Below, piece by piece: positions 13,175 through 53,338 of a DNA stretch of 64,000 nt. Location of the stretch: assembly GCA_016183235.1 (NCBI GenBank), contig JACPFA010000013.1:1-64000 (forward strand). The letters run 5' to 3'. The notes under the pieces were generated by a model. That model worked only from the letters and a program-made list of their open reading frames with translations, had not been told where the DNA came from and ran no database searches. The position numbers and the translations under genes were made by a program. Source of the DNA: Deltaproteobacteria bacterium (lineage in GTDB: Bacteria; UBA10199; DSSB01; JACPFA01). Within the stretch, counting starts at the first letter, position 1. The number at the start of each line of letters is the position of its first letter.

Positions 13175-13215
13175 ACTTGCCCATAAGGGCACCTCTAATA
13201 ACTTGGATTTGGGGG

Positions 13216-13335
13216 GACCTCTAAAAAGGGCCCAGATGCAAGGCGCCCGCAAAGACGCGACCGGAGCGTATATGGAAATACGTGAGGATCGCGGCTTTGC
13301 GGGCAACGCGGCAGATGGGTCGTTTTTAACCAGTA
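13216..13335. repeat. Palindromic element overlapping the ptsN start
   Basis: Imperfect inverted repeat with strong inner arms GCCCGCAAAG / CTTTGCGGGC (13245-13254 and 13295-13304) and weaker outer pairing. The apical core reads CCGGAGCGTAT-ATGGAA-ATACGTGAGG, the same core as in the elements at 13789-13934 and 42840-42982. The core contains GGAG followed at 5 nt by ATG, which is the apparent ptsN start. Confidence 0.8.
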
Positions 13336-13775
13336 TCTTAAAAAAAGCGGCCATCATCCCTGAGTTGCGTACCGCCAGCAAAGGTGAGGTCTTAAAAGAG
13401 TTGGTCGATGCGCTTTATTTAACTGTGCCTAATATTGACCCCCATCGCTTGGTCAAACTCCTCAAAGAAAGAGAAGAATTAGGCAGCACTGGAGTAGGGA
13501 GCGGCGTCGCCATCCCCCATGCCAAATACCCCGATCTTGAAAATATTGTCGCAGCCTTTGGTAAAAGTTCATCGGGTATAGCCTTTGATGCCCAAGATGG
13601 GCAGCCCGTTCACCTATTTTTTGCTTTAGTCGCCCCAGAGCACGCTGCGGGTCTTCATTTGAAGGTCTTGGCCAAATTATCGCGCTTACTCAAAGAAGAG
13701 TCTTTTAGGCAACGCCTGCTAGCCGCTGACGACCCAGAATCGATCTATTCAATCATCCTTGAAAAGGATGATTGA
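13272..13775 (+). CDS. ptsN: PTS IIA-like nitrogen-regulatory protein
   Basis: EIIA(Ntr)-type regulatory phosphoprotein. The conserved body runs from LTSILKKAAIIPELRTASK to the C-terminus, with the phosphorylatable histidine in GSGVAIPHAKYPDL. Normal PtsN is about 150 residues and starts just before that first segment. No ATG, GTG or TTG is present there; the nearest start is the ATG at 13272 inside a palindromic repeat, which adds 17 residues (MEIREDRGFAGNAADGS) encoded by the repeat and has GGAG 5 nt upstream, also from the repeat. The protein probably receives phosphate from PtsI/HPr encoded downstream. Confidence 0.9.
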   Translation: MEIREDRGFAGNAADGSFLTSILKKAAIIPELRTASKGEVLKELVDALYLTVPNIDPHRLVKLLKEREELGSTGVGSGVAIPHAKYPDLENIVAAFGKSSSGIAFDAQDGQPVHLFFALVAPEHAAGLHLKVLAKLSRLLKEESFRQRLLAADDPESIYSIILEKDD

Positions 13776-13788
13776 TCCCAAAATCCCT

Positions 13789-13934
13789 GGGGCTGTTGAA
13801 AAACGCCCATCTACGGAGCCTGTCCTGAGCAATAGCGAAGGATTGCCGCAAAACCGCAATCCTCACGTACTTTCATGTACGCTCCGGTTGCGGTTTTGCG
13901 GCTGCCTTGTATCTGGGCATTTTTGAACAGCCCC
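13789..13934. repeat. 146-bp palindromic element with a nested short repeat
   Basis: Outer arms GGGGCTGTTGAAAAA and its near-complement (ending at 13934) flank inner arms GCCGCAAAACCGCAA / TTGCGGTTTTGCGGC and the core CCTCACGTAC-N6-GTACGCTCCGG. The left arm alone carries about 26 extra bases (near 13817-13842, containing CCTGTCCTGAGC and CGAAGGA), which look like a second repeat type inserted into the first. The element fills the gap between ptsN and hprK. Confidence 0.85.
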
Positions 13935-13990: not shown

Positions 13991-14959
13991 ATGATTTCAA
14001 TCCAAGTGTCTGAATTACTTAAAGATTCTTCTTATAACCTCAATCTTGAGATTCTAAGCGGGCGTAAAGGGCTCGATAAAAAGATCACGATCCCTCGTAT
14101 CCAAAAACCAGGCTTAGCCCTAACCGGTGATACCTCGAACCTTCATGCCGGGCGCATTCAAGTCATTGGCAAGTCGGAGGTCAATTATTTAAATAACCTC
14201 TCAGACAATAAACTAACGACCGTCGTAAAAAAGATTTGTGAAATTGATCTGGCTTGTTTTGTGGTCACTCGAGGTAACCAACCTCCCAATATTTTATTAG
14301 ACGAATGCGAAACCAAAAATATCCCTATTTTCACGACTAATTTAATCACCAGCACCTTTATCAACCGAGTTTCTAAATTTCTAGAATACAAGTTAACCGC
14401 CACCACTTCACTTCATGGCGTGCTCTTAGATGTCTTTGGGGTCGGTGTTCTCATTATTGGCAAGAGCGGAATTGGTAAAAGCGAATGTGCCCTAGATTTA
14501 ATTTTGCGAGGGCATCGCTTAGTAGCCGATGATATTGTGCAAATTAAAAAACGCCCTCCGGCCACACTTTCGGGGATGGGAACCGAACTCATTAAGCATC
14601 ATATGGAAATTAGAGGCTTGGGGATTATCAACATCAAAGACCTATTTGGGGTCGCCGCCATCCGCGATGCTAAAGTTATTGAAATTGTCGTTGAACTGAT
14701 CGAGTGGGGTGGCCATGAAGAATACGACCGTTTAGGCATTGACGATAAATATTATTCGATTCTCGATGTTAAGATTCCTTATATTCGCATCCCGGTACGG
14801 CCTGGTAGAAACATTACCACCATTGTAGAAGTGGCCGCTCGAAACCATTTACTTAAATTGCGAGGGCATTTTTCAGCCAAAGAATTTCAAGACACCCTCA
14901 ATACCGAATTAATCCGACAAGAAGAAGCCCATAAAGCCAAACTTGATGCCGTGGAATAA
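13991..14959 (+). CDS. hprK: HPr kinase/phosphorylase
   Basis: Bifunctional enzyme that phosphorylates and dephosphorylates a serine of HPr in response to metabolic state. From the ATG at 13991 the protein has 322 residues, normal for the family, and starts at the usual position (MISIQVSELLKDSS). The P-loop is IGKSGIGKSECALDL (about 156-170), preceded by LHGVLLDVFGVGVL, and the signature region around EIRGLGIINI is present. It lies in the ptsN-hprK-rapZ-EIIA-HPr-ptsI cluster, and its target HPr keeps the matching serine. The 3' end overlaps rapZ by 14 bases. Confidence 0.95.
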   Translation: MISIQVSELLKDSSYNLNLEILSGRKGLDKKITIPRIQKPGLALTGDTSNLHAGRIQVIGKSEVNYLNNLSDNKLTTVVKKICEIDLACFVVTRGNQPPNILLDECETKNIPIFTTNLITSTFINRVSKFLEYKLTATTSLHGVLLDVFGVGVLIIGKSGIGKSECALDLILRGHRLVADDIVQIKKRPPATLSGMGTELIKHHMEIRGLGIINIKDLFGVAAIRDAKVIEIVVELIEWGGHEEYDRLGIDDKYYSILDVKIPYIRIPVRPGRNITTIVEVAARNHLLKLRGHFSAKEFQDTLNTELIRQEEAHKAKLDAVE

Positions 14960-42839: not shown

Positions 42840-42982
42840 AGACCTCTTGCAGAACCGTCGCGAGCGACCCAAGGACAAGGCGGGGCGGGGCCCCAAAACC
42901 GCAGCGTATATGAAAATACGTGAGGATTTTGGGGTGACCCAACGAAGTCATTGGGTCGCGCAGTAGGTTACGCAAGAGGTCT
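42840..42982. repeat. 143-bp palindromic element
   Basis: Terminal arms AGACCTCTTGC / GCAAGAGGTCT (42840-42850 and 42972-42982), a middle stem GCGACCCAA / TTGGGTCGC, and an inner stem CCCCAAAA / TTTTGGGG around the shared core GCAGCGTAT-ATGAAA-ATACGTGAGG. It has the same core as the elements flanking ptsN, with different arms. Confidence 0.85.
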
Positions 42983-53230: not shown

Positions 53231-53338
53231 GGTTAGGCCTTTGAGTTAGCCATCCATACACCTGAGCAACGTTTGAGTTATCGTATGGGTAATTTATGTG
53301 TTGCTAAGCAAGTTTTAATAAATTTTTTAGAGGCCCCC

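Follow-up and report, generated by a model that had tools for sequence, protein, structure and literature searches.

A palindromic repeat fused in frame to ptsN in place of its native start codon in a deltaproteobacterial-type draft genome

The ptsN locus and its repeat

In the stretch of DNA analysed here (64,000 nt, hereafter the window), the conserved body of ptsN directly follows a palindromic repeat and has no start codon of its own. This raises the question of where translation of the gene would begin, and whether such repeats act as mobile translation starts, as an earlier note on this DNA had proposed. The source is a metagenome-type draft genome (2.6 Mb, 51 contigs, 98% complete), whose class-level relatives include metagenome-assembled genomes (MAGs) deposited as Deltaproteobacteria.

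The order of features, on the forward strand unless stated, is rpoN (sigma-54; 11675−13174), the repeat (13187−13328), the ptsN body (13329−13775), a second repeat (13789−13934) and hprK, with its ATG at 13991. The rpoN gene, recognised by its ORF and by tblastn synteny with relatives, stops 12 nt short of the element's left extension, GGGCACCTCTAATAACTTGGATTTGG (13187−13212), which is common to many copies. The palindrome itself occupies 13213−13328 and lacks the right terminus AGAGGTCCCC. The second repeat, on the reverse strand, separates the ptsN stop from hprK; it has the usual orientation and belongs to a related subfamily with GGGGCTGTTC termini. A third member, from the CCTCTTGCA-terminated subfamily and with an identical apical core, is found at 42860−42958, and an isolated terminus match (GGGGGCCTCTAAAAA) occurs at 53324−53338, with no core nearby in the model search.

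The ptsN body (EIIA-Ntr) is intact from about codon 4 to its stop at 13773−13775. It matches PF00359 (3.7e-34) as well as PtsN entries in the PDB, and its complete domain, which covers positions 2−143 of the 144-position profile, begins only a few codons past the junction; the TIGR01419 PtsN model gives 99.7 bits, below its cut-off of 138.7. We compared the 5′ region with those of relatives, a check that the earlier note had suggested. In 28 of 29 relatives the start ATG of ptsN aligns with a TCG in the right arm of the element (13320−13322), which means that the native start has been replaced. Every ordinary in-frame start outside rpoN is element sequence: TTG 13203 and TTG 13209 in the left extension, ATG 13236 (13236−13238) in the outer arm, and ATG 13272 at the hairpin apex. 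The first ordinary start 3′ of the element, TTG 13365, already lies inside the PtsN domain. The read-through from the repeat into ptsN is in frame, as GGPLKRAQMQGARKDATGAYMEIREDRGFAGNAADGSFL, and the frame of ATG 13272 stays open to the ptsN stop.

The apex carries GGAG (13263−13266), CGTAT (13267−13271) and ATG (13272−13274), in frame with ptsN, just as had been read from the sequence before, and the complementary copy at 13789−13934 has the same arrangement, as GGAG-CGTAC-ATG. From ATG 13272 the repeat encodes 19 codons, not the 17 residues given previously, and the in-frame ATG at 13236, preceded by a weak AAGG, had been overlooked.

That this is a repeat is borne out across the genome. BLAST against the same genome finds dozens of copies at 88−100% identity, the core 14-mer, with up to one mismatch allowed, occurs at 59 places, and a covariance model recovers at least 71 copies in the 2.6-Mb draft, with 150 of 527 candidates scored. 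A full copy reads GGGGACCTCTAAAAAGGGCCCAGATGCAAGGCGCCCGC...GCGGGCAACGCGGCAGATGGGTCGTTTTTAGAGGTCCCC, often with the left extension, and most copies have terminal inverted repeats, GGGGACCTCTAAAAA / TTTTTAGAGGTCCCC, the right one of which is missing at ptsN. The family is thus MITE-like, with dispersed, near-identical copies of ~100−200 bp (best pairs 100%) and inverted termini; a scan for terminal inverted repeats, judged by eye only, revealed no longer element with the same ends. The ptsN copy is young and truncated, because window positions 13190−13328 match a second locus of the genome (L002) at 100% identity and this match breaks off at 13328 without AGAGGTCCCC, which most other copies have.

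Some further variation was seen among the copies. One of them (L074, G000:C16:78028-78127) ends at the same right-arm base (GTTTTTA) as the ptsN copy and is fused, in an antisense frame, to an Ig-domain protein. In six loci (L063, L068, L089, L096, L100 and L110) the outermost terminal bases vary between copies while the arms stay complementary, as if the palindrome were corrected or selected as a hairpin. At 13809−13845 of the window, and in L067, L076 and L078, the inner right arm is swapped for CCTTCGCTTGCGCTCTGGACAGGCTC-type sequence that is common to several loci.

Proposed deletion of the native start and fusion to neighbouring genes

The neighbourhood of ptsN in relatives suggests how its start was lost. 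There too rpoN and ptsN are neighbours (tblastn synteny), mostly spaced by several hundred bases, and hpf (PF02482) is found within ~1 kb of ptsN in 20 of 24 relatives. Here the gap consists of the repeat alone, and hpf is absent. The sole hpf of the genome is located upstream of cysD on contig 33 (L168, G000:C33:72193-72537) and has 31−36% identity, over most of its length, to the rpoN-linked hpf of relatives; it is either a moved gene or a different copy. A further copy of the repeat immediately adjoins the end of this hpf.

We propose that a deletion took place here and that its junction is now occupied by a young, non-autonomous, MITE-like palindromic repeat. One end of this deletion would lie inside the right terminus of the repeat, and the deletion would have taken out hpf together with the first codons of ptsN, ATG included, possibly through microhomology at TTA; we infer both the deletion and the order of events from the present arrangement. 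The right arm of the element would so have been fused in frame to ptsN at about its fourth codon, producing a chimeric ORF, and PtsN, if made, would carry a repeat-encoded N-terminal extension of ~19−42 residues.

Initiation on such an ORF would probably be weak, since the ATG sites lie inside a very stable hairpin. We calculated an opening cost for each start, that is, the predicted energy needed to open positions −20 to +15 around it, as a thermodynamic estimate for naked RNA. This cost is 18.0 kcal/mol for TTG 13203, 24.6 for ATG 13236 and 26.9 for ATG 13272. By the same measure, ATG-started ORFs of at least 200 aa in the window have a median of 9.9 kcal/mol, a 95th percentile of 17.0 and a maximum of 18.2, and the native ptsN starts of relatives have a median of 10.2. 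This conserved regulatory gene may be poorly expressed. We consider it fairly probable that the fusion arose by accident at a deletion junction, leaving ptsN as a low-expression or failing allele, and that the repeat is not an evolved portable start site.

The repeat is fused to other genes of this genome as well. One strand frame of it is open end to end (GTSNNLDLGGPLKRAQMQGARKDATGAYMEIREDRGFAGNAADGSFLEVP), and this same frame is joined to the 5′ ends of ptsN and of a gene for a beta-keto acid cleavage enzyme (BKACE, L085), and to the 3′ (C-terminal) ends of genes for PcrA (L099) and a BNR protein (L070). Where relatives of the BKACE gene read ...PVILTCALVGAELTRE, this genome has ...GSFLEVPLVGAELTREH..., such that element-encoded ...GSFLEVP stands before LVGAELTRE in place of the start and the first strand. 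Ahead of the conserved body, the ordinary starts are limited to an ATG at the junction and to the ATGs and TTGs within the repeat. The junction ATG is predicted to be accessible (8.6 kcal/mol), whereas the two repeat ATGs cost ~25. Judged from its sequence, the BKACE gene is a second 5′ takeover and an independent parallel to ptsN. We did not rely on an upstream VLSVTIAT that is similar to the native first strand, since it follows a TAG without an ordinary start. The recO gene (L086) was set aside as a candidate for a further 5′ takeover, having kept its own ATG.

A more drastic possibility is that ptsN was simply inactivated by the loss of its start and now survives as a very young pseudogene with its decay still to come. 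The native ATG and upstream region are indeed gone, the starts in the element are predicted to be occluded, and the copy is too young for decay to show. Against this, the ORF is intact and continues an open frame of the element that holds ATGs, and a second gene has had the same outcome; we therefore regard plain inactivation as unlikely, although an intact frame is no proof that the gene works, because the insertion is so young.

Candidate translation starts in the repeat

The proposal of the earlier note went further, namely that the apex supplies the ribosome site and start codon of ptsN and that the repeats can serve as mobile starts; on this view ATG 13272 would be an efficient start for PtsN and the apex a portable ribosome site. 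That the repeat supplies the start of ptsN stands insofar as all ordinary starts outside rpoN lie within it; an efficient or evolved start at the apex does not follow. GGAG-CGTAT-ATG is present and in frame, most copies with an exact core in this genome keep the GGAG-N5-ATG arrangement, and long ORFs run from that ATG in three copies (those at ptsN, BKACE and recO). Yet recO has its own ATG, and in most copies the ORF from the apical ATG stops within the element or shortly after it. The very high opening cost also argues against the apex, where GGAG is predicted to lie mostly in an internal loop and the ATG in the terminal loop. Furthermore, GGAG-N5-ATG occurs in the window at chance frequency (7 observed, 6.4 expected), so its mere presence does not point to a ribosome site.

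Comparison across genomes points in the same direction. In an alignment of 27 family members (A1), the stems covary, with 23 of 32 pairs changed on both sides, and the core letters flanking the loop are nearly fixed. Of the 14 members that come from other genomes, only 5 have ATG as the loop triplet; the others have ACG, TTG or TCG. Because the loop ATG varies while stem and core are conserved, conservation of GGAG is more readily understood as structural than as that of a Shine-Dalgarno sequence. Orientation also weighs against the apex: among copies between co-directional genes, transcription follows the opposite strand in 21 and the ptsN-like strand in 5 (p 0.0025; approximate, as the gene calls come from our own hexamer score). 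A mobile translation start at the apex is thus weakly supported, and we find it doubtful.

The start could instead be a TTG of the left extension, at 13203 or 13209, outside the palindrome, which would give an extension of ~40 residues. Both codons are in frame, and the opening cost at 13203 is lower than that of either ATG. It is still at the top of the range for the window, however, the codon is a TTG, and there is no recognisable Shine-Dalgarno sequence upstream, so that this start seems improbable to us. Finally, a misjoin or collapsed repeat in the assembly, with the real ptsN keeping its own start, is very improbable: a 51-contig draft with dozens of near-identical copies invites such failures at repeats, but the rpoN-ptsN adjacency in relatives indicates that the flanks belong together, the sequence shared by the element end and the native ptsN start is only ~3 nt (TTA), too short for an assembler misjoin, and hpf is found elsewhere, in unique sequence.

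On the complementary strand the left extension reads ...CCAAGTTATTAGAGGTGCCC, an outward-facing, Shine-Dalgarno-like sequence, and ends ...AAGTTATTAGAGGTGCCC; together with a start codon, this antisense left end takes the form ATTAGAGGTGCCC-ATG. In five loci (L067, L071, L078, L097 and L100) a coding ORF starts within a few bases of an outward AGAGGTG or AGAGGTA, and these starts are predicted to be accessible (6.9−14.3 kcal/mol). As a candidate portable ribosome site, the outward AGAGGTG, just upstream of ~5 genes, is better than the apex. The terminal CTCTAAAAA also appears, on reading the sequence, to provide with its TAA the stop codon of the gene on that side in several copies.

Relation to known repeat families

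An exact 48-mer of the repeat had no match in a GTDB scan, while its degenerate core was found at 12 places in GTDB, and the core occurs in Deltaproteobacteria, Peregrinibacteria, one Bacillota MAG and Enterobacter. Rfam gave no meaningful match to the repeat. The papers listed by a literature text search on the core sequence looked unrelated, to judge by their titles, and the family may already have been described. Relatives of the Enterobacter repeat are present in almost every E. coli genome, with a median of 5 and at most 8 places in each. This ~150-bp E. coli/Enterobacter repeat (L128, L169), which we take to be possibly the RSA repeat (a literature search for that name gave no match), has CCGGAGCGTAC..GTACGTGAGGAT and the apical core in common with the element; it differs in that its loop is ACG, with no ATG, and in that its outer arms are unrelated. 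A model from which they were left out matches the Enterobacter and E. coli repeats with E-values of 1.3e-12 and 1.8e-10, scores that are not independent evidence, as both loci were picked through the core pattern and similarity hits.

ERIC, unlike these core-selected repeats, was not picked through the core. A model built without it aligns to ERIC over the full length and in register, with a marginal score of 14.6 bits (E 0.14), and a pairwise alignment with the element was no better than with shuffles. The apex of ERIC, GGAGC-TACAT..AAGTA-GTGA, is alike, and its AAGGCG and AACGCAG stand at similar places. The link is suggestive. ERIC belongs to enterobacteria or Vibrio, whereas the relatives of the present repeat include uncultured deltaproteobacterial MAGs. 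To our knowledge, the mobility mechanism of ERIC is not established.

Tentatively, all these repeats might form one superfamily extending over Deltaproteobacteria, Peregrinibacteria, Bacillota and Enterobacteriaceae, and perhaps including ERIC, with nearly fixed internal loops (AGGC / AACG and CCGGAGCGTA / TACGTGAGGAT) and covarying stems, whose ends and open frame in the present genome would repeatedly give neighbouring genes start codons, ribosome sites and stop codons. Such a structural family would be a testable link between deltaproteobacterial repeats and enterobacterial ones such as ERIC.

Fusions between MITEs and genes are already known, from RPE and ERIC. ERIC/RU-1 and YPAL/RU-2 are structured intergenic repeats of ~127−168 bp with open frames fused to genes, among them an N-terminal fusion of YPAL/RU-2 in YP_0349 wbbJ (Delihas 2007, PMC2759123). 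RPEs are palindromes of 105−150 bp that contain an open frame and form in-frame fusions with conserved genes (PMC10969869, PMC2229807), as the element here does with ptsN, BKACE, PcrA and the BNR protein. This likeness is one of description; the setting there is Rickettsia and here an uncultured deltaproteobacterial-type draft genome, and the RPE insertions described modify existing ORFs, whereas here the element replaces the 5′ start. QMITE1 and QMITE2 of Coxiella and the pneumococcal BOX elements are MITE-like repeats that alter gene ends, and in some cases an ORF has its start codon within a BOX element (PMC5896051, PMC3049150). Where QMITEs overlap functional genes they do so at the 3′ end, unlike the 5′ takeover of ptsN, and BOX-started ORFs match hypothetical proteins only, not a conserved gene such as ptsN.

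Known palindrome-gene fusions thus lie mostly inside genes or at their 3′ ends, and here the 5′ end and the start codon are taken. We regard the takeover of the start codon of a conserved gene as a new form of such fusion, and its independent occurrence in a conserved regulator and a metabolic enzyme of one genome makes it a case for studying how genes survive the loss of their start.
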